This document shows, piece after piece, positions 3,820 to 20,517 of a stretch of DNA of 64,000 nt (within the stretch, counting starts at the first letter, position 1; each line of letters begins with the position of its first letter). The DNA comes from Haloplanus ruber. Its GTDB lineage: Archaea; Halobacteriota; Halobacteria; Halobacteriales; Haloferacaceae. The notes beneath the pieces are model-generated. The model made no database searches, was not told the DNA's origin, and worked only from the letters and a program-made list of their open reading frames with translations. The DNA is taken from contig NZ_JANHDK010000002.1 in the NCBI RefSeq assembly GCF_024494725.1, positions 372,001 through 436,000 on the forward strand. The letters are read 5' to 3'. Made by a program: the position numbers and the translations under genes.

Positions 3820-5982
3820 TCACGGCGTCGGCGGGTCGCCCTCGTAGGCGTCGAGGTCGGCGAAGAAGTTCAGGAGCGCGAACTCGAGTTTCTCGGGGGC
3901 GACGTCGATGAGTTCGTCCCGTTCCTCCGGCGGGAACGAGTCGCGGACGCCGTATTTCCCCATGTCCCGGCCGGCGCGCGTGTAGCGCTTATCGAGGAGG
4001 ACCCGCACCCCGTAGTCGTCGGGCGAGCGGATGACCCGCCCGAGCGCCTGTCTGGTCTTGCGGATCGTTGGAATCTCGACGGCGTAACGCCATCCCGCGT
4101 CGAGTCGGTCGTCGTAGACCCGGTCGTAGGCAGCCTGCACCGCCTCCAGGCGCTCCGAGAGGTTCGGATACGGAACGCCGACGACGACCACCGCGCGGGC
4201 GTCGTCGCCGTCGAAGCTCACCCCCTCGCCCAGGGTCCCCCACAGCGACGTAAACAGGGCCGCATCGTCGTCGTCGACGAACCGTTGGCGGAGGGTTTCC
4301 GTGGGCGTCCCCGCCTCGTCGAGGTAGGTGTTCGACGCGCCGAGCAGGTCGTGATACCGCTCGGCCTCGGCGTAAGACGGGAAAAAGCAGAGCGTGTTTC
4401 CGGGTGTCATCCGGATCACGTCCGCGAGTGCCTCCGCGACGGTCGCTTGGGTCTCTGGGTCCTCCCGGTCGCTGGCGAACAGCGCTGGCCCCTCGACGGC
4501 GAAGGTCCGTCGGCGGTCCTCGGGGTACGCCAGGCCGTAGGTGAGCGTCGCCGGGTCCGACAGGCCGAGGACGTCCGCGAGTACGTCAAAGGGGCGGAGC
4601 GTCGCGCTCATCAGCACGCTCGCGGCCACCTCGTCGAACAGTCCTTCGGTCACCTCTCGTGGGATCGCGGTGTAGAGCTCCGCCCGCCCGTACACCTCGT
4701 CGGTGCCCGCGTCGCGACGAACCGCGGCCATCGGATGCCGGCCGAGGTCGCTCCCCTCTGACATCCAGTCGGCGACGAACCCGGCCGCTTGGAGGGTCGG
4801 CGACTCCTGGCGGGTCGTCGTCTCGCCGCGTCGGTAGGCCTCCTCGTAGGCTTCGTCGAGCGCCTCGCCCACCTGCAAGGCGAGGTCGACCTCGGCGCCG
4901 ATCCCGCTCCCCTCGTAGGCGTCAAGAAAGGCGAGCGTGAGGTCGTTCCGACGGTCGTCGTTGGCGATGTCGAGGTCGTGCCAGTTCTCGCCGACCTGTT
5001 CGCGCTCGCCGAACCCCAGAGCGTCATCGACGGCCGTCTCCAGCCCCGTCAGAAACGCCTCGATCACGTTGCGTGCGCGGCCGGCCCGCGAGTCGTCGGC
5101 CTCGTCGAGTTCGGCCAGCGCGCCCTCCAGCGTTCGCGCCGAGAGCGTCCGCGTCGCGTGGTCTCGGGCCGCCGACTCGACGTTGTGTGCCTCGTCGAAA
5201 ACGGTGACGACCTCCGAGGGATCGCGGCCCAGCCACCGGAAGAAGTGCTCGCGGATGGTCGGATCGAGCAGATGGTGGTAGTTACATACCGCGAGGTCGA
5301 CCCCCTCCATCCCCTCCTTGAGGAGTTCGTACCCACAGAGTCCGCGTTCGTCGGCGTAGGCGTAGATTTCCTCGGGCGTGCGAACGTCGTCGAACAGCCA
5401 CCCCTCGAACTCCTCGGTGTCCCGCGTCAGGTTCGCGCGGTAGTGCTCACAGACGTTCGCCGACTCCAACTCCTCGATATCCTCCTCGACGGCTTCGAGT
5501 TCGTCGACAACCGCTGCCCGGGCCTCCGCGGCTTCCTCCTCCCCGGCGCGTACGTCGTCCAAGAGCGCCTCGCTTCGCTTGGCGAGGTCCTGGCGGTCCG
5601 CCTCCGCCTCGACCAGCGACCGCGTGGTCTCCTTGAGGCTCCGACACTCCTCGTAGCCGACGTCGAGGTGGCACATCGAGGCCTTGCCCTTGAATACGAC
5701 CGCCCGGATCGGCTCCTCGCCCGCGATGGCGCGGGCGTCCTCGACGAACTGGCGCATCTGCTGGTGGACGTTCGTCGTGATGACCACCGTTCGGTCTTCC
5801 GCACGGGCGTGTGCGAGTGCGGGCACCAGCGCCGACAGCGTCTTGCCGGTGCCGGGGGCGCCCTCTAGCAACACGTCCTGGCCGCGGGCCAGCGAGTTGG
5901 CGATGCGGTCCATCGCCTCGCGCTGGTTCGGGTACGGCGACTCGTACGGAAAGAACCGCTCGTGTCCCGCCGTGTCTGCCAC
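3820..5982 (-). CDS. XPD/Rad3-type iron-sulfur DNA helicase
   Basis: This 720-residue superfamily 2 helicase has Walker A GAPGTGKT (41-48) and a DEAH box (263-266). Between them lies a cysteine-containing insertion with Cys near 104, 113, 178 and 216, the arrangement expected for the 4Fe-4S domain of XPD/FancJ/DinG enzymes, and a coiled-coil-like arch segment (about 120-175). The C-terminal helicase domain keeps SATLRPFD, GEGVSFDGDDARAVVVVG and QALGRVIRSPDDYG (motif VI). Family members are 5'-3' helicases in excision repair. A TATA element (ttttaatc, 6005-6012) 26 nt upstream supports leaderless expression. Confidence 0.93.
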   Translation of the reverse strand: MADTAGHERFFPYESPYPNQREAMDRIANSLARGQDVLLEGAPGTGKTLSALVPALAHARAEDRTVVITTNVHQQMRQFVEDARAIAGEEPIRAVVFKGKASMCHLDVGYEECRSLKETTRSLVEAEADRQDLAKRSEALLDDVRAGEEEAAEARAAVVDELEAVEEDIEELESANVCEHYRANLTRDTEEFEGWLFDDVRTPEEIYAYADERGLCGYELLKEGMEGVDLAVCNYHHLLDPTIREHFFRWLGRDPSEVVTVFDEAHNVESAARDHATRTLSARTLEGALAELDEADDSRAGRARNVIEAFLTGLETAVDDALGFGEREQVGENWHDLDIANDDRRNDLTLAFLDAYEGSGIGAEVDLALQVGEALDEAYEEAYRRGETTTRQESPTLQAAGFVADWMSEGSDLGRHPMAAVRRDAGTDEVYGRAELYTAIPREVTEGLFDEVAASVLMSATLRPFDVLADVLGLSDPATLTYGLAYPEDRRRTFAVEGPALFASDREDPETQATVAEALADVIRMTPGNTLCFFPSYAEAERYHDLLGASNTYLDEAGTPTETLRQRFVDDDDAALFTSLWGTLGEGVSFDGDDARAVVVVGVPYPNLSERLEAVQAAYDRVYDDRLDAGWRYAVEIPTIRKTRQALGRVIRSPDDYGVRVLLDKRYTRAGRDMGKYGVRDSFPPEERDELIDVAPEKLEFALLNFFADLDAYEGDPPTP

Positions 5983-6064
5983 GGTTCGGGCTTGCGCGTG
6001 CCGGGATTAAAACCCTCGGTGACCCCCGCCACGAGCCGTTCGGCGCGAAACGAGGACGCCGGTG

Positions 6065-7438
6065 TCAGTCGATCCGCGGTTCGACGTCGTCGAGGCTCTC
6101 GCGGGCGGCATCGAGCAGGAGCTTCCGCTCGGCGCGGGCGACCACCCGGCGCACCTCGTCCACGGCGTCGATGTTCGAGGACAGCGAACTGATCCCCTTC
6201 TCGACGAGGAACTTCGCCATGTCCGGATGTGATCCCGACTGGCCCGTGATGGTGGTGTCGACGTCGTGTTCGTTGCACGCCTCGATGACCTCCGCCATCG
6301 CCTCTAGGATGGTCGGATGGAAGTCGTCGAAGCGATCCGCCACCATCGCGTTGTTGCGGTCGACTGCGAGCATGAACTGGACGATATCGTTCGTCCCGAG
6401 CGCGACGAAGTCGATCCCTTCCTCGATGATCTCGTCGATGGCACGGATACTGGCCGGCGTCTCGATCATCGCGCCCCAGTCGTGTTCCTCGCGGTCGATG
6501 CCCACCTCGTCCATCAACTCTCGTGCCCGCCGCACGTCCTCGGCGTCGTTGGGCAGCGGGAACATGACCTCGACGTTGTCGTAGCCCATGTCGTGCAGGC
6601 GCTTGAACGCCCGCAGTTCGAGTTTGACCATCTCTGGCTCCTTGAGACTCCGGCGGATGCCCCGGTAGCCGAGCATCGGGTTGTGTTCATGGGGTTCGTC
6701 CTCACCGCCTTCCAACTCCGCGAGTTCGTCCGTCGGCGCGTCGAGCGTCCGGGCGCGGACCGGCCGCGGGTAGAAGGCGTCCGCAACCTTCCGGATCTCC
6801 TCGGAGATTTCCTCGACAAAGGCGTCCTCGCCGTGGTCCGCGACGTACTTCTCGGGGGTTTTGCTCGTCGAGAGCAGGATATGCTCCAGTCGGAGTAGGC
6901 CGACGCCGTCGGCGCCCGTATCCGCGGCGCGCTGGGCCGCGTCGGGAATCGAGACGTTCACCTTCACCTCAGTCGCCGTCGTGGGCGCCCCGCCCGCCGT
7001 CGGGTCGGGGCTCTCGCCCGCCGGATCGGCGTCCGCGACGGCCTCCTCAGCCGTTGACGCCGCGTCCGCGTCCGGAACCACGACGGTCCCCTTCTGGCCG
7101 TCGAGCGTGATCCGCTGGCCGTCGGCTAGGACCGCCGTCGCCTCGCCACAGCCCACGATGGCCGGGACGCCGAGTTCGCGGGAGACGATGGCCGCGTGGG
7201 AGGTCATCCCTCCCTCGTCGGTGACGATGCCCGCGGAGCGTTTCATCGCCGGGACCATGTCGGGGGCGGTCATCTCCGTGACGATCACATCCCCCTCGTC
7301 GATCCGGTCGGCTTCGTCGATGTCCTCGACGATTCGCACCGGCCCCGTCGCGACCCCGGGGCTCGATCCGTAGCCGCTGACCAGTTCTGTCCCCGGTTCC
7401 TGCGTCTCGTCGACCGCTTCGGTCTCGTTTGCCGTCAT
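6065..7438 (-). CDS. PEP-synthase-like protein lacking the ATP-grasp domain
   Basis: This 457-residue protein contains only the last two domains of the PEP synthase/PPDK/EI family. The swivelling domain (about 20-122) carries the phosphorylatable His81 in GGMTSHAAIVSREL. An acidic linker follows, then the PEP-binding TIM barrel (about 158-450). Barrel residues are retained: Arg183, Arg230 (RTLD), Arg259 (NPMLGYRGIR), Glu326 (MIETPAS), Asn350-Asp351 and Arg361. The catalytic Cys, normally in a CGQ or CGE motif, is Thr398 (TITGQSGSHP). Full PEP synthases are about 750-800 residues with an N-terminal ATP-grasp domain, absent here and upstream. The ATG follows directly after the GAPDH stop, so they form one operon. 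It may be a split subunit, a phosphocarrier or a PEP sensor. Confidence 0.85.
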   Translation of the reverse strand: MTANETEAVDETQEPGTELVSGYGSSPGVATGPVRIVEDIDEADRIDEGDVIVTEMTAPDMVPAMKRSAGIVTDEGGMTSHAAIVSRELGVPAIVGCGEATAVLADGQRITLDGQKGTVVVPDADAASTAEEAVADADPAGESPDPTAGGAPTTATEVKVNVSIPDAAQRAADTGADGVGLLRLEHILLSTSKTPEKYVADHGEDAFVEEISEEIRKVADAFYPRPVRARTLDAPTDELAELEGGEDEPHEHNPMLGYRGIRRSLKEPEMVKLELRAFKRLHDMGYDNVEVMFPLPNDAEDVRRARELMDEVGIDREEHDWGAMIETPASIRAIDEIIEEGIDFVALGTNDIVQFMLAVDRNNAMVADRFDDFHPTILEAMAEVIEACNEHDVDTTITGQSGSHPDMAKFLVEKGISSLSSNIDAVDEVRRVVARAERKLLLDAARESLDDVEPRID

Positions 7439-8431
7439 TTAGATGTCGCCGATCTCCATCACGTCGTTCGTCAGTTCGATGCTCTCTGCCGCGTCGGCCT
7501 CGCCCATCATCGCGCGGATGGCGTCCACGTTCTCCGGCACCACGTCGCTCTCGCGGTGGATCGACTGGAACAGGTGAAGCTGTGACCCATCCATGGTGAT
7601 GGAGTCCTCGAAGATCTGGTTCTCGTAGAGGTTCATCCGGTCGCGGCCACGGTCGAGGGCGAACTCCTGGAGTTCCCACCCCGAGTCGACGCCGAGGTCG
7701 CCGTCGACGACGTGAATCCGCGACTGCGAGGCCAACAGATCGCGAACCGCCGCGGCGCTCGGCGTCTCGCCGAGTTCCACGTTGATCCCGTGGAAGTGGT
7801 GGCGTACCGTCGGCACCTTCATCCCCATCGTCGTGACCGGGCCCATGTCCGGGATGACCTCGAGGGCATCCGGGCCGTGGTGGGACGGCAGGGTCACGGG
7901 ATCGGCCGAGATGACGGCGTGTTCGCCCCGGCAGCGGACCAGCGTGATGCTCGCCCGTTCGACGCCGTACTCCTCGTGGAGCGGTGCGAACATCCGGTTC
8001 AGGCCCGTCGTGTTACAGGAGACGATCCGGACGTAGTCCTTGTCGGTGGCCTCGGAGTAGTTGGCGCGAGCGGTGAAACTCGCCTCGGCCACGTCTGCCT
8101 CCTCGCCGCCCTGGAACAGGGCGGGCGTGTCGTACTCCTCGTAGATCGGACGGTACTCGGCACCCATCCCGGCCGGCGTCGCGTCGGCGACGATGTCGCT
8201 CGCTTCGATGAGGTCCTCGACGTCGCCGGCGACGGCCATCCCCACCTCGTCCCACCGGTCCTCGCGACCCTCGGGCACGTAGATGTCGTACCCGCGGTCG
8301 GCGGCCGCGTCCGCCGTGTGGTTCGGACTCGCCTTCCCGATGCCGACCAACTCCATGTCGGGCATCGCATCCACTGCGTCAGCAACCCGCTTGCCGATGG
8401 TACCGTACCCGTTGACGCCTACGCGAATCAT
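7439..8431 (-). CDS. gapB: Class II (archaeal) glyceraldehyde-3-phosphate dehydrogenase
   Basis: This 330-residue enzyme has the archaeal GAPDH pattern: N-terminal Rossmann motif VGVNGYGTIGKRV, TPAGMG cofactor-loop region, and the catalytic Cys139 in IVSCNTTGLNR. It interconverts glyceraldehyde 3-phosphate and 1,3-bisphosphoglycerate with NAD(P); in haloarchaea the class II enzyme is mainly linked to gluconeogenesis (known for the family). A TATA box (actatatg on the minus strand, 8453-8460) lies about 25 nt upstream. Its stop codon abuts the start of the truncated PEP-synthase-like gene, coupling two proteins of the lower glycolytic/gluconeogenic section. Confidence 0.97.
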   Translation of the reverse strand: MIRVGVNGYGTIGKRVADAVDAMPDMELVGIGKASPNHTADAAADRGYDIYVPEGREDRWDEVGMAVAGDVEDLIEASDIVADATPAGMGAEYRPIYEEYDTPALFQGGEEADVAEASFTARANYSEATDKDYVRIVSCNTTGLNRMFAPLHEEYGVERASITLVRCRGEHAVISADPVTLPSHHGPDALEVIPDMGPVTTMGMKVPTVRHHFHGINVELGETPSAAAVRDLLASQSRIHVVDGDLGVDSGWELQEFALDRGRDRMNLYENQIFEDSITMDGSQLHLFQSIHRESDVVPENVDAIRAMMGEADAAESIELTNDVMEIGDI

Positions 8432-8452
8432 ACGCTCCGTTGGCTACACCCG

Positions 8453-8460
8453 CATATAGT
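8453..8460 (-). promoter_or_regulatory. TATA box of the gapB operon
   Basis: The minus-strand octamer actatatg is centred about 26 nt before the gapB ATG, the expected archaeal TATA distance for a leaderless transcript. The neighbouring 8460-8510 stretch is unusually AT-rich for this genome and probably also carries the promoter of the divergent small gene at 8551. Confidence 0.7.
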
Positions 8461-8550
8461 GTCGACGTATCTCGCAGGTTTTGCATTAACTTTCGTGCTT
8501 AACCTTGGGGGACTCCCATCTCAGATGTCGACGCTCGACGACGCTTCACC

Positions 8551-8760
8551 ATGGCCAATCCGAAACAACAGGTCTCCAGTCGCGGTATCCGCGTCCTCGG
8601 AGTCTTCGTCCTCGCGTATCTGCTGGTCGGCTCGTATCTGTACTTCTACCTGGACCTTCCGACGCTCGCCTACGTCGCCTACGGGGTCCTCAGTTGGGCC
8701 GGCGGAATGTTCCTATTCTACCGACTCCACACCAACTTCATGGCCGACTTCGATCCGTAG
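8551..8760 (+). CDS. Small two-helix membrane protein
   Basis: Sixty-nine residues: a basic cytoplasmic head (MANPKQQVSSRGIR), a first hydrophobic helix with several Tyr (VLAYLLVGSYLYFYL), a second helix (YVAYGVLSWAGGMFLFY) and a short acidic tail. It is divergent from gapB across an AT-rich 119-bp intergenic region. I do not recognise a function; such small paired-helix proteins are common in haloarchaea. Confidence 0.65.
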   Translation: MANPKQQVSSRGIRVLGVFVLAYLLVGSYLYFYLDLPTLAYVAYGVLSWAGGMFLFYRLHTNFMADFDP

Positions 8761-8878
8761 TCGCCCATTCTATCACGGACGTTCATTTACTTCCTCGGCA
8801 GAATTCCTCAGGAACGAACGTTTTAATCACGGTTGATAATTACCTCGGTAAGTATATTTGGGTCCAATCATAAATTGC

Positions 8879-8884
8879 TAGGAG
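8879..8884 (+). promoter_or_regulatory. Shine-Dalgarno-like element before the gene at 8889
   Basis: The sequence taggag ends four bases before the ATG at 8889. A TATA-like gtatattt lies at about 8852-8859, so the transcript would have only a short leader. Recognisable ribosome-binding sites are a minority in this window, where most genes look leaderless. Confidence 0.5.
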
Positions 8885-8888
8885 AACA

Positions 8889-9140
8889 ATGGCCGCCGTC
8901 TCAGACTCCCACGACGAACAATTTGGTCCCGCGTCCGGGGGACGGACCCCCGACGCACAGGTAGTACTTGGGACCGTAATGCTCGCGACGGTTCTCGCCG
9001 TCGCCGCCGCTGGCTACATTTTCGACGCGACCGCCGCGGCCCAAACGGCTGTGGTGATGCTCCCGCTTCTGGTCGCCACCTCCCTTCGCACCTCGCTCGC
9101 CGACCATTCGGCGTACGTCTCGCTCGCTCGGCGCCGCTGA
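8889..9140 (+). CDS. Small two-helix membrane protein
   Basis: This encodes 83 residues: a polar N-terminal tail of about 30 residues, then two hydrophobic segments (VVLGTVMLATVLAVAAAGYIF and AAQTAVVMLPLLVATSL) and a basic C-terminus (LARRR). It follows another small membrane protein on the same strand after a 128-bp AT-rich gap that carries its own TATA-like and SD-like elements. It is convergent with the methyltransferase. Family and function unknown. Confidence 0.6.
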   Translation: MAAVSDSHDEQFGPASGGRTPDAQVVLGTVMLATVLAVAAAGYIFDATAAAQTAVVMLPLLVATSLRTSLADHSAYVSLARRR

Positions 9141-9141
9141 A

Positions 9142-9969
9142 CTACTGCTCAGGGCGATAGAGCACGTCGTACCCGTGGGCAACGTAGGTCAAGCTTCCCG
9201 CTTCTAGCTGCCGACGCCGACTCGTCAGCCACGACTCCGCCGCCGGCACCTCGCCCTCGGCGGCGTCCGCGACGAACGAGAGGATTCGTTCGAGGAAGTA
9301 CCGCTCGTCGGCCGGGTAGCTGCCGTCTCGTGGGTGGACCACCCAGTCCGACGCCCCGGCCGCCAGTAGGTCTCCGTCGCGTGCCCGACAGCGGTCGAGC
9401 AGGTGCCGGCCCGCCCGTGTGTCCCGTCCCGGTTCGTCGTCGATGGCTTGGTGGTACGCGTCGATCACGGCATCGTCGGCCGGGTGGTCGGGCTGAAACA
9501 TCGTCACGCCGTCGAAGGTGATCGGAGCGTACACCAATCCGTCGGGGCCAAGTGCGGCCGCAAAGGCGTCGAGCGCCGCCTCGACCGGCACCAGATCCAC
9601 GAACGCTCCCGCAACCACGAGATCAGCCCGCTCGTCGTCGAACGCCGTCAGCGCGTCGCCCGCCTCGAACCGCCCCGTCAGGTCGCCGACGCGGAACCCG
9701 GCGTCGGTGCGCTCGGCGTCGAGTTCGGCCGTCCGGAGGGCCTGGGCGCGTTCGACGATTCCCGGATCGCTGTCGACGCCGCGGTACGACCCCGCACGCA
9801 CCCCCCAGTCGAGGAGTCGGGGGACCGTAACGCCCGTGCCGGCTCCCGCCTCCAACACCCGCGGGGCTGTCGGGAGTTCCGCGAGGAGGCGGTCCCGGAC
9901 CCGCCGGTCGAACGCCCGTTCGTCGACCGTCCGTTTCGCCTCCAGATACCGCTCGTCGGCGTGGTCCAT
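9142..9969 (-). CDS. SAM-dependent class I methyltransferase
   Basis: This encodes 275 residues with the Rossmann methyltransferase core: motif I VLEAGAGTGVTVPRLL (near residues 38-53), the acidic motif II loop GVDSDPGIVERA, and ADLVVAGAFVDLVP as motif IV. The ATG at 9969 was preferred to one at 10014 because it shares one base with the stop codon of the PTPS-like gene (TGATG), indicating translational coupling. It is the last gene of the five-gene minus-strand cluster, so its substrate is probably the cluster's product or an intermediate. No motif identifies the acceptor. Confidence 0.85.
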   Translation of the reverse strand: MDHADERYLEAKRTVDERAFDRRVRDRLLAELPTAPRVLEAGAGTGVTVPRLLDWGVRAGSYRGVDSDPGIVERAQALRTAELDAERTDAGFRVGDLTGRFEAGDALTAFDDERADLVVAGAFVDLVPVEAALDAFAAALGPDGLVYAPITFDGVTMFQPDHPADDAVIDAYHQAIDDEPGRDTRAGRHLLDRCRARDGDLLAAGASDWVVHPRDGSYPADERYFLERILSFVADAAEGEVPAAESWLTSRRRQLEAGSLTYVAHGYDVLYRPEQ

Positions 9970-10346
9970 CAGAGCGCTCGCTCGTGGCTGGCCCACGCGT
10001 CCTCGTCTTCCCACATCCGGACGGTCAGGCCAGTCGGCGTCCCCGTCGGGACGGCTTCGACGAACCGGTCGCCGAAGACCCGTGCGAAGCGCTCGACGCT
10101 CGGGTTCGCGTCGGCGAACTCCGGCAGGTCGTTCAAGAGTGCGTCGCGGTACCGAGATTCGAGTTCGTCGAGCGCCGCGTCGACGGCGTCGATGTCGACA
10201 AGATAGCCGTACTCGTTCAGGTCGGGGCCGGCAAACTGCACCGCCACCTCGAAGTGGTGGCTGTGGACCTCGCCCTCGGGGCCGGGGTCGGGGACCGTGA
10301 GGAAGTGTTGGGCCACGAAGTCCCGCGACACGGAGAGCCGATACAT
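9969..10346 (-). CDS. PTPS/QueD-fold protein without the catalytic Cys
   Basis: A 125-residue T-fold protein. The three zinc-binding histidines of 6-pyruvoyl-tetrahydropterin synthase and QueD are visible: His14 (FVAQHF) and His28/His30 (HSH, in place of the usual HGH). The catalytic Cys of the CxxxHGH motif is replaced by Glu24 (EGEVHSH). Family knowledge: PTPS-III enzymes also use Glu, but in an ExxH spacing. A Glu-containing C-terminal strand (VRMWEDEDAW) may bind the pterin-like ring. It is therefore unlikely to be ordinary QueD. An internal TATA-like element (10367-10376) precedes it. It overlaps the methyltransferase by one base. Confidence 0.85.
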   Translation of the reverse strand: MYRLSVSRDFVAQHFLTVPDPGPEGEVHSHHFEVAVQFAGPDLNEYGYLVDIDAVDAALDELESRYRDALLNDLPEFADANPSVERFARVFGDRFVEAVPTGTPTGLTVRMWEDEDAWASHERAL

Positions 10347-10366
10347 ACCTAGCGGTGGGTCGCGAG

Positions 10367-10376
10367 CGTCTTATGC
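10367..10376 (-). promoter_or_regulatory. TATA-like element before the PTPS-like gene
   Basis: The minus-strand gcataagacg is centred about 25 nt before the PTPS-like ATG. It suggests the last two genes of the cluster can be expressed apart from the upstream three. Confidence 0.5.
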
Positions 10377-10383
10377 GCTGGGC

Positions 10384-11463
10384 CTACTCGAAGGTGAGCA
10401 ACACCTGCAGCGCGTTCTCGGGGCCGTCGTCGAGCAACTGGTACGCCTCCGTGGCGTTCTCGACGCCGATTCGGTGGGTGATGAGACGCTCGGTCGGCAG
10501 TTCGCGGAGTCGATCCCACGCCGTCTCCATCCGGCGCTCCTTCGTCCACCGGCCGCGGAGTTCGGGCGCGAGCGTGCTCACCTGGCTCGACGACACGTCG
10601 ATCCGGTTGCGGTGGAAAAACCCCCCGAGATCCGTCTCGGCGCGCTTGCGCCCGTACCACGAGCCGACGATAATCCGGCCGTCGTAACCCACGGCGTCGA
10701 CGGCGTCGTCGAGCGTCTCGGGCGACCCCGAGAGTTCGTACACCAGGTCGGCACCCGCAGGGTCGCCCCGCTCACCGACCTGCGCTGCCGCGTCGGGCCG
10801 GAGCGTCTCGTCGGCGCCCAGGTTCGCGGCCATCTCGCGGCGCTCCGGGACGGGTTCGACCACCGTCAGTCGCTCCAGCGGGAACGCCGAGAGGACGTGT
10901 GTCGTCACGAGACCAACCATCCCGGCGCCGAAGACGACGACCCGTTCGCCCACACGGGGGTTGCTGTCCATGCACAGCGTCGTCGCCGTCTCGGCGGTCG
11001 GCAGGAGCGCCGCCGTCTCCGTCGAGACGTCCTCGGGGACGGTCACGAGGTCCGCCGGCGACGCCGCGAAGTGACTCTCGTGGGGGTTGAACGCGAAGAC
11101 ACGGCGGCCGCGCCACGCCTCGTCGACGTCCGCCCCCGTCGCCACCACGTCGCCGACGGTGGCGTAGCCGTATTTCAGCGGGTACGTCAGATCGTCACCC
11201 AGTGCGTCGATGGTCGCGTCGGCGGCCAAGTCACGCGGCATCTCCCCTCGGTAGATCAGGAGTTCGGTGCCCGAACTCACCGCCGCGACGCGTGCTTCGA
11301 CGAGTACCTCGTCGGCCTCTGGTTCGGTCACCGGTTCGTGTTCGACGCTGACCGTTCGGGGCCCGGTGAAGTACAGCGCCCGCCCGGTCGCGGGGACGGC
11401 CGTCTCCGACTCGTCCGCGTCCTCGACACTCCCTGTCACGCCCTCCTTAACCACGCTGCTCAC
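10384..11463 (-). CDS. MDR-family (zinc-type alcohol) dehydrogenase, probably without catalytic zinc
   Basis: This is a 359-residue medium-chain dehydrogenase/reductase. The GroES-like domain starts at ALYFTGPRTVSVE; the NAD(P) fold is marked by VVVFGAGMVGLVTTHVL. The usual catalytic zinc Cys of the C-x-T/S-D motif is replaced in VAAVSSGTELLIYRGE, so zinc is probably not bound there. The general pattern resembles BchC-like and other SSGTE dehydrogenases. A 30-residue acidic N-terminal extension is present and may be dispensable. It lies 30 nt after the phosphatidyltransferase gene and 37 nt before the PTPS-like gene, within the minus-strand cluster. Confidence 0.88.
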   Translation of the reverse strand: MSSVVKEGVTGSVEDADESETAVPATGRALYFTGPRTVSVEHEPVTEPEADEVLVEARVAAVSSGTELLIYRGEMPRDLAADATIDALGDDLTYPLKYGYATVGDVVATGADVDEAWRGRRVFAFNPHESHFAASPADLVTVPEDVSTETAALLPTAETATTLCMDSNPRVGERVVVFGAGMVGLVTTHVLSAFPLERLTVVEPVPERREMAANLGADETLRPDAAAQVGERGDPAGADLVYELSGSPETLDDAVDAVGYDGRIIVGSWYGRKRAETDLGGFFHRNRIDVSSSQVSTLAPELRGRWTKERRMETAWDRLRELPTERLITHRIGVENATEAYQLLDDGPENALQVLLTFE

Positions 11464-11493
11464 TTCATACTGCCGCCCGTCCCGACGGAGGCT

Positions 11494-12336
11494 CTAGGCC
11501 CCGAGTCGGCCCGTGACGACCAGATAGTCCCGGCCGAACGTCGCGAGCGACGGCACGACAGCGATCAGCGCCGCCGCGTGGACCGTTACCGCCGGGAAGA
11601 GTGGCGTTAGCGCAACCGCGATGAACGCCATCTGCAGCGCCGCCAGCGGCCGCCGGACCCGGCTCTCGGGCAGGTCGCCGACGGGACGCCCCCGCCACCG
11701 ACGCCACGTCGTCGCCGCGCGGTACACGTAGCGCGCGGCCGACAGCGCGAGGTAGGCGACGGGGAGTCGGCCCCAGGCGACGCCCACCAGCGGCGCGACC
11801 AGGAACCCGAGCGTATCGAAGGCGTGATCGAGTTTCGTCCCGAGCGGCGTCGTTCGGTCGGTCCTCCGCGCGAGGCGGCCGTCGGCGAAATCGAGGGCGA
11901 CCCCGGCGCCGTAACAGAGGGCGGGTGCCCAGCGAATCGCGGCGGGCGGCGCGCCGACTCCTGTGACCCCGAGGACGCCCGCCACCGACGACGGCGGGAC
12001 GGCCAGAAACCCTGCCGTCGCGGCGTACAGCACCCCCCGAATCGTCGTCACGAGGTTCGGCGGCGCGGCGGCCGCGGCCAGTCGGTTGGCGTCGACGTGG
12101 TAGGCGAGAAAGCCGACCACGTAACACAGCACCACCCCCGTCACGAGCGTCCAGCGGTTCGCGACACGCGGGGTCGTCGCCGCGGCGACGACCGCCCGGC
12201 CACCGGCCGCGACGCCCGCGGCGGCGACGGCGGTTCCCGCCACCGCCGCGATTCCACGCCGCCGTCGGCGGACGGTCCCGCCGCCTTCGCCCCCTCCGGC
12301 TCTGCACCCGCCAGCCCCGCTTTCACTGTCGCTCAT
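11494..12336 (-). CDS. CDP-alcohol phosphatidyltransferase family protein
   Basis: This 280-residue integral membrane enzyme carries the complete family signature from Asp149 to Asp174: DxxDG (149-153), AR (156-157), Gly166, Asp170 and Asp174. About seven hydrophobic helices are visible. Family enzymes transfer a phospho-alcohol from a CDP-linked donor to a second alcohol, making phospholipids or soluble phosphodiesters such as inositol phosphates. The ATG at 12336 overlaps the stop of the upstream oxidoreductase fusion (ATGA), which fixes the start. The Ser/Gly/Arg-rich first 30 residues look like a cytosolic tail. Acceptor and donor are not evident. Confidence 0.9.
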   Translation of the reverse strand: MSDSESGAGGCRAGGGEGGGTVRRRRRGIAAVAGTAVAAAGVAAGGRAVVAAATTPRVANRWTLVTGVVLCYVVGFLAYHVDANRLAAAAAPPNLVTTIRGVLYAATAGFLAVPPSSVAGVLGVTGVGAPPAAIRWAPALCYGAGVALDFADGRLARRTDRTTPLGTKLDHAFDTLGFLVAPLVGVAWGRLPVAYLALSAARYVYRAATTWRRWRGRPVGDLPESRVRRPLAALQMAFIAVALTPLFPAVTVHAAALIAVVPSLATFGRDYLVVTGRLGA

Positions 12337-14318
12337 CGCTCGAACGTGGGGTCTTCGAGCGCCGCGAACCGCTCGCGACCCTCCGGCGGCAGACGGTATC
12401 CCGCCGCGGCGAGGTTCTCGACCACGTGGTCGGAGTCGGTGCTGGACGGGATGGGAACCACGCCGTCCCCAACGTGCCACGCCAAGACGGCCGTCGCGGG
12501 CGACACGCCCATCTCGGCGGCCACGTCCGTCACCACTGGGTCGTCGAGGAGGCCCGGCACCGAGAGCGGCGAGTGGGCGATCACCCGGATTCCACGCTCG
12601 TGACACCACGCCACCAGGTCGTCGCGCGGCCGATACGGATGACGGGCCACCTGGACGACCGCTGGGGGGACGCGAGCGAACTCGACGAGGTCCGCGAGCG
12701 TCGACAGGTCGACGTTACAGATCCCGAGGGTCGCCGCCAGCCCCCGGTCGTACACCGCCTCCATCCGCCGCCAGGTCGATTCGAGGCTCACGTCCACCCG
12801 GTCACGCTCGCCGTCCGCTGTCTCGGGGAAGGTGAGCGCCTCCTGTTTCTCGACCGGCAGTTCGGCGAGACGACGGAGTGGCCCGGTGTACGCCCACGAC
12901 TCCGGCCAGTGGATCATGTAACAATCGAGGGTATCGAGACCGAGGTCGGCGAGTGTCGTCTCGCAGGCTTCCGCAACGTGGCCGTGGTTGGTGTTCCATA
13001 CCTTGCTCACGACGAAGAGGGCCTCGCGGTCCGGACTCCCCGGGGCGGCGATGATCTCGCCGATCCGGGCCTCGTTGCCGTAGAGTTCCGCGGCGTCGAG
13101 GAGACGATAGCCCGCGTCCAGCGCCCGCTCGATGGACGCCCGGCGGTCGACGTAGGTGTCGTCACGGTAGCGCGAACAGCCGAACCCGACGGGTGGCAGG
13201 CGGAGCGCGGCGGTTGGGGGGGTCGGTGGGGCCGTGCCGCCGGTCTCGTCACCACCGACGCTCCACACCACCGGCCGGCGGGCGGCGTCGTCCACGACGC
13301 TCCCGTCGACAGCCACCGACTCGCCGAGATCAGACGCCCGCTCGATGGCATTACAGATCCCGACGACGTGAGCGGCCCGTCGCGCGGTCGAGCGGTCCGG
13401 ACGCCCCTGGCGAACGCTCGCCGCGAGTCGCTCCGGCCCGGCCAGGTATCGCGTCCGCTGTGGCGGCGTCGTGAGTGGGTTCGGGGTGTACGCCCGCCCA
13501 ACACGGCCCACCGAGACGGGGGTGTGGTCGTCGCCGCCGAGTCCTCCCGCGTCAGCGAGATATAGCGACCCGTCGTCGCCGTGGCATTCGAGGCTATAGA
13601 ACTCCCGGCTCCGGTGGGGCGCATAGAGGCTCGCGGTGAGGCGGACGAGCGGGCCGTCCGCGAACGCGACTGTCGCCTCGACGTGGCTCGGGCGCTCCGG
13701 CGCGCGCGATTCGCGGTCGGGCCAGGGGTCGATGGCGTCCGCGACCCGCACCCGGCGCGCCGGGCCGAACCACGACACGAGAAGGCTCAGGGGGTACACC
13801 GCGCCGTCGTACAGCGGGCCGACTTGGAGGAAGGAGTCGGGAGCGTCGTGCCACTCAGTCACCCGGCCGACGTGGGCGTGGGCGTAGGCCAGACGCACCG
13901 GACCGAGTCGCCCGTCGTCGAGCGCCCGGCGGGCGAGCCGCTGCCCCTCACAGCCCGGGGTGAGCGGCGCACAGCCGAGCGCGCGGTCGTGCCGGGCCGC
14001 GAACGCGACGAGGTCGCGCGCCCGTTCGGCGCCCAGCGCGAGGGGCTTCTCGCTCCAGACGTGTCGCCCCGCGCGAAGCGCCCGCTCGGTCACCGCGGCG
14101 TGAGCGCCGTGGCTGGTCAGATTCACCACGAGCGGCGCGTCTGTGGTGTCGAGGAGAGTGTCGAGATCGGTGTACGCTGTCGCGTCGGTGGCGGCCGCGA
14201 ACGACGCCGCCCGGTCGGCGTCGAGATCACACACTGCGACCGGCGAGAGCGGCGACGAGTCGAGGTCGGCGGCGTACTTCTCCGCCACGGCCCCGCAGCC
14301 CACGAACGCACACTCCAT
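12333..14318 (-). CDS. Gfo/Idh/MocA oxidoreductase fused to an aldo/keto reductase
   Basis: This is a 661-residue two-enzyme fusion. The N-terminal half (about 1-355) is a Gfo/Idh/MocA sugar or inositol dehydrogenase, with dinucleotide motif FVGCGAVAEKY and the Glu-Lys-Pro motif at 90-92. The C-terminal half (about 374-661) is an aldo/keto reductase whose catalytic tetrad is visible as Asp408, Tyr413, Lys439 and His470 (YMIHWPE). A Pro/Thr-rich linker (about 360-372) joins them. Both halves act on polyol or sugar carbonyls, suggesting successive redox steps on one substrate. It heads the minus-strand cluster. A TATA element (aggcttttca, 14341-14350) lies 27 nt upstream. Confidence 0.9.
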   Translation of the reverse strand: MECAFVGCGAVAEKYAADLDSSPLSPVAVCDLDADRAASFAAATDATAYTDLDTLLDTTDAPLVVNLTSHGAHAAVTERALRAGRHVWSEKPLALGAERARDLVAFAARHDRALGCAPLTPGCEGQRLARRALDDGRLGPVRLAYAHAHVGRVTEWHDAPDSFLQVGPLYDGAVYPLSLLVSWFGPARRVRVADAIDPWPDRESRAPERPSHVEATVAFADGPLVRLTASLYAPHRSREFYSLECHGDDGSLYLADAGGLGGDDHTPVSVGRVGRAYTPNPLTTPPQRTRYLAGPERLAASVRQGRPDRSTARRAAHVVGICNAIERASDLGESVAVDGSVVDDAARRPVVWSVGGDETGGTAPPTPPTAALRLPPVGFGCSRYRDDTYVDRRASIERALDAGYRLLDAAELYGNEARIGEIIAAPGSPDREALFVVSKVWNTNHGHVAEACETTLADLGLDTLDCYMIHWPESWAYTGPLRRLAELPVEKQEALTFPETADGERDRVDVSLESTWRRMEAVYDRGLAATLGICNVDLSTLADLVEFARVPPAVVQVARHPYRPRDDLVAWCHERGIRVIAHSPLSVPGLLDDPVVTDVAAEMGVSPATAVLAWHVGDGVVPIPSSTDSDHVVENLAAAGYRLPPEGRERFAALEDPTFER

Positions 14319-14340
14319 ACCCCTCGGCGGGCGGCGGCGG

Positions 14341-14367
14341 TGAAAAGCCTCCCGCCCGGCTTAAGCC
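14341..14367. promoter_or_regulatory. Divergent promoters of the oxidoreductase-fusion cluster and the glycosyltransferase
   Basis: Two TATA-like boxes are packed into 27 bp. Minus-strand aggcttttca (14341-14350) is 27 nt before the fusion gene; plus-strand ggcttaagcc (14358-14367), a palindrome, is 27 nt before the glycosyltransferase ATG. Such close packing implies co-regulation or interference of the two transcription units. Confidence 0.65.
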
Positions 14368-14389
14368 CGTCCCGCCCGCAGGGAGGACG

Positions 14390-15493
14390 ATGGCCCGGAT
14401 CGCGGTCCTCCACAACACCCTCGACGGTCGCGGCGGCGCCGACGCCGTTTGCCTTCACGTCTGTGCGGCCCTGCAGGACATCCACGACGTGACGCTGGTT
14501 ACCCTCTCGCGGTCGTCACTGTCGACGCTGAACCGCCTGTTCGACACCGACGCGGCCGTGCCCGTCCACCGCCCGCCGGGCACCGCGCTGGTCTCCCGGG
14601 CGTTCGACGCCCTGCCCGAACGGGTCGGTCCGGCGCTCGCTCCGCGGAGCGTCCTCCTCGACCGTGCCTTCGCCCGTCACGCCTCCCGGTTCGACGCGGC
14701 CGTCAGCACCGCCAACGAGTTCGCGCTGTCGCTCCCGTCGGTCCAGTACGTCCACTTCCCGCAGTTCAACCGGCGGTGGACGCCGGTCGGCGAGGGGGGT
14801 CGCCTCGACCCACTCTGGAGTCGGCTGGCCGGTCTCGGCGACCGCCAACTTCCGGCTGACGCCCGCCTTCTCGCCAACTCGGGGTGGACGGCCGACGCCG
14901 TCGAGGACATCTACGACCGGCGGCCGACGGTTTGCCATCCGCCGGTCGATCCGCCGCCGACCCCGCGCCCCTGGGACGACCGCGAGGACGGCGTCGTGGT
15001 CGTGGGACGGCTGGCGCCGGACAAGCGGCCGCTCCGGGCGATCCGGATCGTCGACGGCGTCCGCGACCGGGGTCACGACCTCCACCTCCACCTCGTTGGG
15101 TCGTCGTCCATGTACCCCGACTACGCCGACCGCGTCGCCGCCGCCGCGGCCGCCCGACCGTACGTCAACCTCGACCGCGACGCGCCCCGTGAGCGGATCG
15201 ACACGCTCCTCGAAACGCACCGCTACGGTCTCAACTGCAAGCCGCGAGAACACTTCGGGATGGCGGTCGCGGAGTACGTCGCCGCTGGGATGGTGGCGTT
15301 CGCCCCCGATGCGGGAGGGCAACGAGAGGTACTGGACGGCCGCTCCGACCGACTGTTCGAGTCGACGGCCGACGCCGTCGAAACCGTTGCCGCCGCCGTC
15401 GCGGCCGACGCCCGTCCGACGCTCCCCCGCGACCGCTACGCGAGCGAGCGGTTTCACGCCGCCGTCCGGGACCACGTCGCGGCAATCCTGTAG
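14390..15493 (+). CDS. GT4-family glycosyltransferase
   Basis: A 367-residue GT-B fold glycosyltransferase. The N-terminal acceptor domain starts with IAVLHNTLDGRGGAD; the donor half contains GVVVVGRLAPDKRPLRAI and the E-x7-E motif in EHFGMAVAEYVAAGM, which binds the sugar nucleotide. The pattern YVHFPQFNRRW and the loop NLDRDAPRERIDTLLE resemble ALG11-like mannosyltransferases, although the exact sugar cannot be read. It is divergent from the five-gene redox/phosphotransfer cluster and shares its promoter region, so it may glycosylate that pathway's product. No transmembrane segment is visible. Confidence 0.88.
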   Translation: MARIAVLHNTLDGRGGADAVCLHVCAALQDIHDVTLVTLSRSSLSTLNRLFDTDAAVPVHRPPGTALVSRAFDALPERVGPALAPRSVLLDRAFARHASRFDAAVSTANEFALSLPSVQYVHFPQFNRRWTPVGEGGRLDPLWSRLAGLGDRQLPADARLLANSGWTADAVEDIYDRRPTVCHPPVDPPPTPRPWDDREDGVVVVGRLAPDKRPLRAIRIVDGVRDRGHDLHLHLVGSSSMYPDYADRVAAAAAARPYVNLDRDAPRERIDTLLETHRYGLNCKPREHFGMAVAEYVAAGMVAFAPDAGGQREVLDGRSDRLFESTADAVETVAAAVAADARPTLPRDRYASERFHAAVRDHVAAIL

Positions 15494-16445: not shown

Positions 16446-18224
16446 ATGCCGTCAAAGGTCGAGCGCTGGAAAGACGAAACCTACGGAATGGAGATCCGGG
16501 AGCATCTTCTCCGGTTCGCGGAGGAGGGCTGGGACGCCATTCCGGAAGACGAACACGACGCCTGGTTCGAGCGGTTCAAGTGGTGGGGGCTGTACCACCA
16601 GCGGAAGGGCCAAGAGAGCTACTTCATGATGCGCATCGGGACGCCGATGGGCCGCATGACGCCGGAACAGCTCCGCACCGTCGGCGAGGTGGCCCGCGAC
16701 TACGCCACCGGCCCGGTCGAGAACCCCGAGTTCGGTGACGCCTACGCCGACTTCACGACCCGGCAGTCGATCCAACTTCACTGGATCAAAGTCGAGGACA
16801 TCCCCGACATCTGGGACGAACTCGAATCCGTCGGGCTCTCGACGATCCAGGCCTGTGGTGACTCGTGGCGCAACATCGTCGGCTCGCCCGTCGCCGGCCG
16901 CGACGCCGACGAACTCGTCGACGTCTGGCCCATCGTCCAGGAACTCCACGAGAAATTCAAGGGCAACGACCTCTACGCAAACCTGCCCCGGAAGTGGAAG
17001 GTCGCCATGACTGGCGACCGCCGTGGCTCCGGCCAGGGCGACATCAACGACCTCGCCTTCGAGCCCGCGATCAAGGAACTCGACGGCGAGGAGGTCGAGG
17101 GATTCAACGTCAACGTCGGCGGTGGCCTCTCCCGCAAGGAACCGCGGTTCGCCCGCGACATCGACGTCTTCTGTCGCCCCGAGAACGCCGCGGACGTCGC
17201 CGCCGGCATGTCCTCGCTCTTCCGTGACTACGGCGACCGTGACGACCGCTTCAACGCCCGCATCAAATTCCTCATCGACGAGTGGGGTCCCGAGAAGATG
17301 CGCTCGGTCCTGCAAGAGGAGTATATGGACTACGAACTCCCGACCGCCGGCCAGGGACTCCGCGACGAGTACGACTACAACGCCGGCCGCACGGACGCCC
17401 ACGGCGACTACATTGGCGTCCACGACCAGAGCGACGGGCAGAACTTCGTCGGCCTCTCGGTGCTCGTCGGTCGGATGAGCGCCGACGACGTGATCGAACT
17501 CGCTGACCGCGCCGAGGCGTACGGCTCCGAGATGATCGGCCTCACCCAGCGACAGAACCTCATCGTTGGCGACATCGCCGATGAGGACCTGGACGACTTC
17601 CTCGACGAGGATCTGTTGGAGGAGCACTCGCCTGACCCCCACCCGTTCATGCGCGGCTCCATCGCCTGTACGGGCACCGAGTACTGCTCGCTCTCTATCG
17701 TCGAGACGAAAAATCGGATGGTGCGGTACGGGCGCTGGCTCCGGGACAACGTCGACCTCCCCGAGGGCGTCAACGACTTCCACATCCACCTCTCGGGCTG
17801 TACCGCGTCGTGTGCTCAGCCACAGATTGCGGATATCAGCCTTCGTGGCATGAAAACGCGAAAGGACGGCGACGCCGTGGAGGCGTTCGACGTCGGCCTC
17901 GGCGGCGGCCTCGGCGAGAACCCGACCTTCGCCGACTGGGTGAAGATGCGCGTCCCTGCCGACGAGGTTCCGGGCTACATCGCCAACCTGCTCGAGGCCT
18001 TCGAGGCGGAGCGGGAGAGCCCAGAGCAGTCCTTCCGTGACTTCGTCGCCGAACGCGACGAGGACGAACTCGCCAACCTCGCGGAGTCCGCGGAGACGAG
18101 CTACGAGGACCCCTATCTCGGCAACACGAAGCTGACGTGGTACCCCTACGCCGAGGACACCAGCATGGACGCCTCGCCGGCGCCGACCGACCCCAACGAC
18201 CAGCCGCTCCCCTCGGACGACTGA
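16446..18224 (+). CDS. nirA: Ferredoxin-dependent assimilatory nitrite reductase
   Basis: This 592-residue enzyme of the nitrite/sulfite reductase family performs the six-electron reduction of nitrite to ammonium in the cytoplasm. Siroheme/4Fe-4S ligands are visible as C-x5-C (Cys408, Cys414; ACTGTEYCS) and C-x3-C (Cys452, Cys456; SGCTASCAQP). Two repeated ferredoxin-like modules flank these halves (TTRQSIQLHW and LTQRQNLIVG). A 30-residue acidic tail ending PSDD is typical of haloarchaeal versions. Nitrite rather than sulfite is inferred from similarity to haloarchaeal NirA and from context. It is followed two bases later by a small acidic protein, then siroheme genes. Confidence 0.95.
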   Translation: MPSKVERWKDETYGMEIREHLLRFAEEGWDAIPEDEHDAWFERFKWWGLYHQRKGQESYFMMRIGTPMGRMTPEQLRTVGEVARDYATGPVENPEFGDAYADFTTRQSIQLHWIKVEDIPDIWDELESVGLSTIQACGDSWRNIVGSPVAGRDADELVDVWPIVQELHEKFKGNDLYANLPRKWKVAMTGDRRGSGQGDINDLAFEPAIKELDGEEVEGFNVNVGGGLSRKEPRFARDIDVFCRPENAADVAAGMSSLFRDYGDRDDRFNARIKFLIDEWGPEKMRSVLQEEYMDYELPTAGQGLRDEYDYNAGRTDAHGDYIGVHDQSDGQNFVGLSVLVGRMSADDVIELADRAEAYGSEMIGLTQRQNLIVGDIADEDLDDFLDEDLLEEHSPDPHPFMRGSIACTGTEYCSLSIVETKNRMVRYGRWLRDNVDLPEGVNDFHIHLSGCTASCAQPQIADISLRGMKTRKDGDAVEAFDVGLGGGLGENPTFADWVKMRVPADEVPGYIANLLEAFEAERESPEQSFRDFVAERDEDELANLAESAETSYEDPYLGNTKLTWYPYAEDTSMDASPAPTDPNDQPLPSDD

Positions 18225-18225
18225 G

Positions 18226-18510
18226 ATGGCCGACCGCGTGCTGAAGGTCAACGCCTTCACGACGTTCGACCTCCTCGACGCCCGTATCGAGGGCCACGGA
18301 TTCGAGGAGGAGGCCTTCGCCACGCTCAACGTGCGGACGGCCCGGAACGACCCCGAGGAGGTATCGCTCGACCTCGAACTCGACAACACCCAACTCGACA
18401 GCGTGCCCGCCCACGCCGACCGGGTCAGCCTCTCGGCCGCGGAGGCCCGGACCCTCGCGGCCGAACTCCAACAGGCGGCCGAGCGCGTCGACGAGGCCGG
18501 GGACGCATGA
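18226..18510 (+). CDS. Small acidic protein in the nitrite-assimilation cluster (DUF6360-like)
   Basis: Ninety-four residues, starting one base after the nirA stop, so almost certainly co-translated with it. The pattern VLKVNAFTTFDLLDARIEGHG is followed by a helix rich in Ala/Glu (SAAEARTLAAELQQAAERV). It resembles a haloarchaeal family I remember as DUF6360. No Cys is present, so it is not an electron carrier. A structural or assembly role for NirA is only a guess from the tight linkage. Confidence 0.75.
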   Translation: MADRVLKVNAFTTFDLLDARIEGHGFEEEAFATLNVRTARNDPEEVSLDLELDNTQLDSVPAHADRVSLSAAEARTLAAELQQAAERVDEAGDA

Positions 18511-18595
18511 TCCGCCGTCTCCCGACCCTCGTGACGACGGACGCGGGCACGTGGGCACCCCCACAGGCAACGAATTACCACGACACACCCCAACG

Positions 18596-19435
18596 ATGAG
18601 CACGACGACCACCGGCACGGTGTATCTCGTCGGGGCCGGCCCGGGCGACCCCGAACTCATGACGGTGAAGGCCCGCCGACTCCTCGACGAAGCGGACGTC
18701 GTCCTCCACGACTCGCTCGTGGGCGACGGCGTGATCGAATCGATCCCCGACCCCACGCGGGTCGAGAACGTCGGCAAGCGCGCCGGCGGCGAGCGAACCC
18801 CCCAGGCCGAGATCAACGACCGCCTGATTCGCGAGGCACAGGCCGGCCGGGACGTCGTCCGTCTGAAAGGCGGCGATCCGACCATCTTCGCCCGCGGCGG
18901 CGAGGAGGCCGAACACCTCGCGCGCCACGGCGTCCCCTTCGAGGTGGTGCCGGGGGTCACAAGCGCCATCGCCGCCCCAGGGGTCGCTGGCGTCCCAACG
19001 ACTCACCGGGACCACGCCTCGGCGCTCGCGGTCGTCACCGGCCACGAGGACCCGACCAAGGCCGATAGCGCCCTCGACTGGGGGGCACTCTCCGGTCTCG
19101 TCGCCGCCGGCGGCACGCTGGTAATCCTCATGGGCGTCGGCCGGCTCCCGGACAACGTGGCGGCGCTCCGCGCCAACGGCGTCGCGCCCGACACGCCCGT
19201 CGCCATGGTCGAACGCGCCACCCTCGACGACGAACGCGTCGTCGCCGGGACGCTCGACACCGTCGTCGACCGGGCCGACGAGGCGGCCGTCGAACCCCCC
19301 GCCGTCACCGTCGTCGGCGAGGTGGTGGGTGTCCGCGAGACGGTCGCCCACTGCCTCGGTGGTACCGACGCGGCCGTCGAGGGGTCGACGCTCGCCGTCC
19401 CCGAGCGAGTCGTGGGGGTGACCGACAGTGACTGA
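18596..19435 (+). CDS. cobA: Uroporphyrinogen-III C-methyltransferase
   Basis: A 279-residue SAM-dependent enzyme that methylates uroporphyrinogen III twice to precorrin-2, the first step to siroheme. Visible motifs are VYLVGAGPGDPELMTVKA at the N-terminus, the DVVLHDSLVG loop, VVRLKGGDPTIFARGGEEAE and the PGVTSAIAAPGVAGVPTTHR segment. The start MSTTTT at 18596 was chosen because these motifs follow at normal spacing; a longer frame from 18551 adds non-conserved residues. Siroheme is the NirA cofactor, which explains its place downstream of nirA. It overlaps the next gene by eight bases. Confidence 0.95.
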   Translation: MSTTTTGTVYLVGAGPGDPELMTVKARRLLDEADVVLHDSLVGDGVIESIPDPTRVENVGKRAGGERTPQAEINDRLIREAQAGRDVVRLKGGDPTIFARGGEEAEHLARHGVPFEVVPGVTSAIAAPGVAGVPTTHRDHASALAVVTGHEDPTKADSALDWGALSGLVAAGGTLVILMGVGRLPDNVAALRANGVAPDTPVAMVERATLDDERVVAGTLDTVVDRADEAAVEPPAVTVVGEVVGVRETVAHCLGGTDAAVEGSTLAVPERVVGVTDSD

Positions 19436-20483: not shown

Positions 20484-20517
20484 CGGGGTTTAACTCCCTA
20501 CCCAACCATCCACGATT

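Follow-up and report, generated by a model that had tools for sequence, protein, structure and literature searches.

What compound is made by the run of six genes between positions 9142 and 15493 of a 64,000-nucleotide stretch of Haloplanus ruber DNA (contig NZ_JANHDK010000002.1, positions 372,001 to 436,000; the whole stretch is referred to as the window)? The genes encode a methyltransferase, a PTPS-fold protein, an MDR-family oxidoreductase, a CDP-alcohol phosphotransferase (CDP-transferase), a dehydrogenase-aldo-keto reductase (AKR) fusion and a divergently transcribed GT4 glycosyltransferase. A sequence-only reading had placed them in one pathway that it could match to no known route. Here we find that the six genes almost certainly act in one pathway, and that the cluster is the haloarchaeal form of an orphan bacterial cluster, that of the PTPS homologue SCO6650 of Streptomyces coelicolor (PTPS-IV); the set is neither confined to haloarchaea nor unnoticed. 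The cluster comprises the following features (window coordinates).

9142..9969, minus strand: methyltransferase, class I S-adenosylmethionine-dependent (275 aa, likely start 9969, MDHADERY; Pfam Methyltransf_23/25/11)
9969..10346, minus strand: PTPS-fold protein of the haloarchaeal GPEGxxHSH type (PF01242, E 5.7e-25)
10384..11463, minus strand: MDR-family oxidoreductase, BchC-like (best NCBIfam model TIGR01202 bchC)
11494..12336, minus strand: CDP-alcohol phosphotransferase, a membrane enzyme (PF01066; likely start 12336)
12333..14318, minus strand: Gfo/Idh/MocA dehydrogenase-AKR fusion, abbreviated Gfo-AKR (Pfam)
14319..14389, no strand: divergent intergenic region of 71 bp, putative promoter that has TATA-like A/T runs towards either gene (read from the sequence)
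14390..15493, plus strand: GT4 glycosyltransferase, divergent (PF00534)

One gene set across Halobacteriales

The distribution of the genes was examined in 243 Halobacteriales genomes, in which PTPS orthologues were called at E below 1e-20 with the window PTPS-like protein as query. The PTPS-like gene is present in 132 genomes (141 at E 1e-3) and the CDP-transferase orthologue in 106; both occur in 103 genomes, the PTPS-like gene only in 29, the CDP-transferase only in 3, and neither in 108 (Fisher p ~6e-37, shared ancestry uncorrected). The view that the genes are independent neighbours is rejected on this co-occurrence (103 genomes with both, 3 with the CDP-transferase only), and the independent scatter in related genomes that the sequence-only reading had named as its refutation was looked for and not seen.

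The PTPS-like and CDP-transferase genes lie less than 10 kb apart in 65 of the 103 genomes, and far apart or on other contigs in 38. At 60 mapped PTPS loci (the window and 59 others), the neighbours include MDR (54 loci), methyltransferase (52), GT4 (52), CDP-transferase (38), DUF7475 (32), GTP cyclohydrolase III (21) and Gfo-AKR (14). MDR, PTPS, methyltransferase and CDP-transferase occur together at 38 of these loci, all six families at 14, and the same six families with the GT type of the window at 7, the window included; because its gene sets are repeated in this way, the cluster is not a chance assembly. Where the CDP-transferase lies away from the PTPS locus (20 such loci retrieved), it is accompanied by Gfo-AKR in 10 cases. 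Two of these hold further core genes (L205 and L207), L207 combining Gfo-AKR, CDP-transferase, MDR, GT4 and GTP cyclohydrolase III. The methyltransferase adjoins the CDP-transferase at five other distant loci, and two more have MDR; the three genomes mapped among those five (G149, G192, G199) have a PTPS locus without methyltransferase. The parts of the cluster thus shuffle yet remain one set, and it is this mix-and-match linkage, together with the co-occurrence of PTPS and CDP-transferase, that identifies them as one functional set. Among plasmid records, the methyltransferase matches only 10, identical to the 10 that hold the PTPS-like gene.

The Gfo-AKR fusion and the GT4 type of the window are variable parts rather than core. 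The window GT4 type is present at 9 of the 60 loci and a different GT4 at 43, and the two are found together at none; since they never share a locus, the window type seems to replace the GT4 of most clusters. Wherever Gfo-AKR adjoins a CDP-transferase, the transferase is of the window-like subtype (24/24 loci), whereas loci without the fusion mostly have another subtype (29/35). This constant pairing suggests that Gfo-AKR prepares the acceptor for the window-like CDP-transferase.

Several loci show duplication or damage. In L205, a further copy of the PTPS gene, split in two (G120:C1:179642-180006), lies inside a fairly complete second cluster of the same genome. In Haloarcula marismortui (plasmid pHMA411, L038, ~4900-9324; G201:C7:104289-104659), a stop or frameshift breaks the PTPS-like gene, and the Gfo-AKR gene is unannotated and split. 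Both genes are intact in H. sinaiiensis, so that decay of the cluster seems to be under way in the H. marismortui strain.

Bacterial relatives

The neighbours of the haloarchaeal PTPS-like gene recur in Streptomyces, Methylosinus, Thiodictyon, Rhizobiaceae, Roseobacteraceae and Microbacterium, and a cluster of dehydrogenase, PTPS, glycosyltransferase, methyltransferase and CDP-transferase occurs among Actinomycetota and Pseudomonadota, in many cases together with GTP cyclohydrolase II. MDR, glycosyltransferase and CDP-transferase are each found in 79 of 80 Streptomyces loci, the methyltransferase in 78, and a creatininase, RibA and a flippase-like gene each in 74. A scan of genome contigs with SCO6650 alone gave matches only in Streptomyces. 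SCO6650-type genes also occur, with MDR adjoining, on annotated plasmids of Streptomyces, Methylosinus, Thiodictyon, Peteryoungia, Agrobacterium, Palleronia and Microbacterium, near varied combinations of GT4, methyltransferase, CDP-transferase, RibA, RibD, cytochrome b and flippase-like genes; the exception is a Streptomyces anthocyanicus plasmid (L042), where PTPS lacks the cluster neighbours.

The window MDR was compared with 72,556 plasmid records, and 16 of the 18 bacterial records that it matches at 93 bits or above have the gene beside a SCO6650-type PTPS. Because it finds almost only such MDRs in bacteria, the MDR-PTPS pair is orthologous across Archaea and Bacteria. Between the two domains, the CDP-transferases and the methyltransferases are less closely related (~15-60 bits).

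In three proteobacterial clusters (L044, L045, L046), cytochrome b561-like genes lie beside RibD, a hint that the product may take part in redox reactions.

The PTPS-like protein

In the window PTPS-like protein (motif region PGPEGEVHSHH), the catalytic Cys is replaced by Glu and the HxH pair of zinc ligands is retained. The Cys position is Glu or Asp in 60/60 haloarchaeal members, with His two after the first motif position, and Ala in 8/8 bacterial cluster members, which have the motifs FGPAQ or FGSAQ and HGA (the count excludes some of the aligned paralogue rows). Because the catalytic Cys is lost, QueD or biopterin chemistry is unlikely. The QueD NCBIfam model gives 41 bits against a cutoff of 89.25, the CxxxHGH motif is absent, and the same genome encodes a separate CxxxHGH paralogue on contig 1.

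The best PDB match is SCO6650 (3d7j, E 5e-9, near full length), and QueD matches at 1e-4. PTPS-IV proteins have been described by a signature FGPAQ, and their neighbourhoods with GTP cyclohydrolase (RibA) and RibD_C were noted earlier (PMC5445326). The window protein lacks this signature; its kinship with PTPS-IV is seen in the closeness of SCO6650 among solved structures and in the conserved MDR-PTPS synteny. In another family of the phylum (L244-L246), the motif FGPETRLHGH, beside a BchC-like MDR, is a form between the bacterial and haloarchaeal ones.

GTP as the entry metabolite

The entry enzyme was missed in the sequence-only reading: neither GTP cyclohydrolase III nor II is encoded in the window, and one or the other is present in the clusters of many relatives. 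GTP cyclohydrolase III (PF05165) is present at the 21 of 60 haloarchaeal loci counted above, against ~0.4 expected, and 20 of the 25 genomes with two copies have PTPS (p 0.01). RibA is found in L242, a locus from an archaeon of another family in the same phylum, and RibD_C at no mapped haloarchaeal locus. In ten genomes (G060, G014, G057, G144, G173, G188, G065, G029, G050, G040), the sole GTP cyclohydrolase III adjoins the PTPS-like gene. The housekeeping enzyme, which provides the entry to riboflavin and F420, seems to have been captured by the cluster. The H. ruber genome has a single GTP cyclohydrolase III (C1:1008043), a single RibD_C gene and two creatininases, all outside the window.

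In L242, a bacterial-type GTP cyclohydrolase II occupies the place of GTP cyclohydrolase III, with a creatininase near, and the two unrelated cyclohydrolases thus substitute for each other. At 74/74 loci, RibA of the Streptomyces clusters carries Met in place of the catalytic Tyr, which is Tyr105 in E. coli (RAM or QAM, against RAY in E. coli), and the proteobacterial cluster RibA examined keeps Tyr. In work of Spoonamore from 2006, the Tyr-to-Met change is said to make SCO6655, the GTP cyclohydrolase II homologue of the S. coelicolor cluster, stop at formylaminopyrimidine (FAPy). FAPy is also the product of GTP cyclohydrolase III. The creatininase family includes a formamidase of riboflavin biosynthesis (PMC9478397), and by family membership we guess that the cluster creatininases could be deformylases. 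A rule that Met-type RibA always occurs with creatininase and Tyr-type never does was tried and is broken by L242.

The different routes probably converge on diaminopyrimidine ribosyl phosphate. Because GTP cyclohydrolase III or II recurs in the clusters of relatives, the missing entry step is likely the conversion of GTP to a formylamino- or diamino-ribosylaminopyrimidine phosphate. A Natrarchaeobaculum sulfurireducens plasmid has MDR beside GTP cyclohydrolase IIa (NZ_CP024046.1:81580-82563) and no PTPS match on the same plasmid; this locus is possibly a partial cluster.

Proposed pathway and alternatives

In the first step of the proposed pathway, GTP would be opened to FAPy (formylaminopyrimidine ribosyl phosphate) by the GTP cyclohydrolase III encoded outside the window, and loss of the formyl group would then give the diaminopyrimidine from which riboflavin is made as well. 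The Cys-less PTPS-like protein and the BchC-like MDR may then rearrange, oxidise or reduce the ring side chain. Judging by family, GT4 would add a sugar and the methyltransferase a methyl group. In the last step, the CDP-transferase could take either this compound or a polyol shaped by Gfo-AKR and link one of its hydroxyls to the archaeol phosphate of CDP-archaeol; the result would be a membrane phospholipid whose head group is of the pteridine or pyrimidine type.

MDR scores 84.2 bits against the bchC model, far from the equivalog cutoff of 291 bits that would make it a BchC, and the usual Cys/His zinc ligands are apparently absent (positions read from the sequence). The CDP-transferase has the intact motif DxxDGxxARx8GxxxDxxxD (DFADGRLARRTDRTTPLGTKLDHAFD), scores 17.5 bits against the archaetidylinositol phosphate synthase model NF040950 (cutoff 180) and has cholinephosphotransferases as its best solved relatives (E 0.002). 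The Gfo domain has inositol 2-dehydrogenase as its best, weak, NCBIfam match. No cytidylyltransferase is annotated in the haloarchaeal and bacterial clusters inspected. It is the intact transferase motif, the flippase-like and DUF7475 membrane neighbours and this lack of an annotated cytidylyltransferase that lead us to propose a lipid step.

In its general form, a specialised pathway to a methylated, glycosylated pteridine- or pyrimidine-type compound in phosphodiester linkage to a lipid, the proposal has in our estimate about an even chance, and the lipid anchor taken by itself a chance close to, or just short of, even. The narrower idea of a membrane phospholipid shared by Archaea and Bacteria, with a glycosylated, methylated pteridine-type ring from GTP as head group, is more tentative and on balance doubtful. 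If true, together with the bacterial cytochrome b561-like and flippase-like partners, it could represent a new kind of lipid-anchored redox carrier or light-absorbing membrane cofactor. The sequence-only reading had named either a phosphodiester lipid head group or a pterin-type compound; each agrees with the wider evidence and the two could hold together, although the lipid part is inferred. It had also stated that no standard haloarchaeal lipid or queuosine route explains the set, which holds, and folate and F420 fare likewise (by motif, score and distribution).

Several points weigh against this pathway. CDP-alcohol transferases can take other donors and acceptors. The 29 genomes with the PTPS-like gene and no detected CDP-transferase orthologue belong mostly to one family. 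The window has no cyclohydrolase, deformylase or RibD gene, so that copies elsewhere in the genome must serve. RibD_C occurs in proteobacterial clusters; among the 80 Streptomyces loci it is seen once, and at the mapped haloarchaeal loci never. The cluster creatininases give 37-41 bits or no match with the ArfB model (cutoff 180) and fall below every NCBIfam equivalog cutoff, and the archaeal RibA of L242 keeps Tyr though a creatininase is near, so that creatininase and cyclohydrolase type track each other imperfectly.

Among the rival explanations, a single pathway with a soluble product, in which a CDP-activated small alcohol is joined to a pteridine or sugar to give a phosphodiester osmolyte, pigment or cofactor, is rather unlikely. 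The CDP-transferase superfamily makes soluble phosphodiesters as well as lipids, as in di-myo-inositol phosphate synthesis, and the inositol 2-dehydrogenase match of the Gfo domain and the cholinephosphotransferase kinship of the CDP-transferase would suit such a product; the lack of an annotated cytidylyltransferase speaks against it, and the flippase-like, DUF7475 and phosphatase/sulfatase-like partners point rather to a product in the membrane. It is improbable that two neighbouring pathways are involved, MDR, PTPS and methyltransferase making a pterin and GT4, Gfo-AKR and CDP-transferase a lipid head group. The 38 of 103 genomes in which the halves are far apart or on other contigs, and the attachment of Gfo-AKR to the CDP-transferase, agree with such a division, but 103 of the 106 CDP-transferase genomes also have PTPS, in other genomes the division runs elsewhere, the methyltransferase being at the CDP-transferase locus, and the core is held together in the Streptomyces clusters.

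Two further rivals would tie the PTPS-like protein to known cofactors. That PTPS-IV serves coenzyme F420 or riboflavin biosynthesis, a role mentioned as unpublished (PMC5041015), with its neighbours as tailoring genes, would agree with the shared precursor, with GTP cyclohydrolase III or RibA and RibD_C beside PTPS (PMC5445326), and with the genomes whose only GTP cyclohydrolase III sits in the cluster. This is very improbable: cofG is present in 205/205 near-complete genomes with or without the cluster, PTPS in 132/243, and genes for a core cofactor would not be spread so unevenly or carried on plasmids. F420 co-distribution was not found, and an F420 role is rejected on distribution. There is the barest of chances that the protein is a canonical PTPS, a biopterin, folate or queuosine precursor enzyme amid unrelated neighbours. 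The Pfam PTPS fold and the public annotation as 6-carboxytetrahydropterin synthase speak for it; against it stand the QueD score, the absence of the catalytic Cys in all the haloarchaeal and bacterial cluster members counted and the separate CxxxHGH paralogue, and a queuosine, biopterin or folate enzyme was rejected on these three grounds. The findings suggest that public annotation of these genes as '6-carboxytetrahydropterin synthase, queuosine biosynthesis' is very probably wrong. A single pathway from GTP to a lipid-linked pteridine- or pyrimidine-type compound is the reading that we prefer.

Organization of the window cluster

The six open reading frames and their domain assignments in the sequence-only reading all hold in Pfam and NCBIfam, and the tight spacing that it described was re-measured. 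The order of transcription on the minus strand is Gfo-AKR, CDP-transferase, MDR, PTPS-like and methyltransferase, with a 4-bp ATGA overlap between the first two, gaps of 30 nt before MDR and 37 nt before the PTPS-like gene, and a 1-bp overlap with the methyltransferase. The shared promoter had been given as 27 bp; the divergent intergenic region has 71 bp. We infer that this region is the promoter, with the TATA-like runs GAAAAG and CTTAAG ~27 nt from each divergent start codon, a distance that may be the source of the 27-bp figure. A sigma-70 promoter scan gave no match, as expected in an archaeon. The cluster is limited on the left by a small convergent open reading frame and on the right by a nitrite/sulfite reductase block. 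At 16446-21504, the window encodes nitrite/sulfite reductase, uroporphyrinogen methyltransferase, TrpD-like transferase, ferredoxin-like and precorrin-2 dehydrogenase-like proteins, which from their translations look like an assimilatory reductase and siroheme block.

Comparison with known systems

The Streptomyces GTP cyclohydrolase and PTPS homologue of orphan product have been known for almost two decades. The kind is thus already known as an orphan, from the S. coelicolor proteins and from PTPS-IV neighbourhoods with RibA and RibD_C; in openly licensed PMC papers, we found no published product for SCO6650, SCO6655 or PTPS-IV, only the notes on neighbourhoods (PMC5445326, PMC5041015), and no account of the haloarchaeal variant, the cyclohydrolase swap, the co-inherited CDP-transferase or the Gfo-AKR module. 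That haloarchaea have this core too, with an unrelated cyclohydrolase at the corresponding position and a tightly co-inherited CDP-transferase, narrows the entry metabolite and suggests a lipid end point. The product question becomes testable in two domains through gene deletions and lipid mass spectrometry.

The archaeal entry to riboflavin and F420 (ArfA GTP cyclohydrolase III, ArfB deformylase, ArfC reductase) shares with the proposed pathway its first enzyme, the sole copy in some genomes, and probably its first intermediates, but has no place for PTPS, MDR, GT4, methyltransferase or CDP-transferase, and the cluster is present in about half of the genomes. The bacteriochlorophyllide dehydrogenase BchC is the closest NCBIfam model of the window MDR, which falls far under its equivalog cutoff; a chlorophyll pathway is absent here. 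Archaetidylinositol phosphate synthase and other CDP-alcohol phosphotransferases share the catalytic motif and membrane-enzyme family of the window transferase, which stands in its own group tied to this cluster. The SCO6650/SCO6655 cluster of S. coelicolor has RibA where haloarchaea use GTP cyclohydrolase III, and the motif FGPAQxxHGA where the haloarchaeal PTPS has GPEGxxHSH; relative to it, the window has Gfo-AKR and a different GT4, and lacks the flippase-like and creatininase genes. Common to both are the orthologous MDR-PTPS pair, GT4, methyltransferase and CDP-transferase, and a cyclohydrolase that feeds the route.

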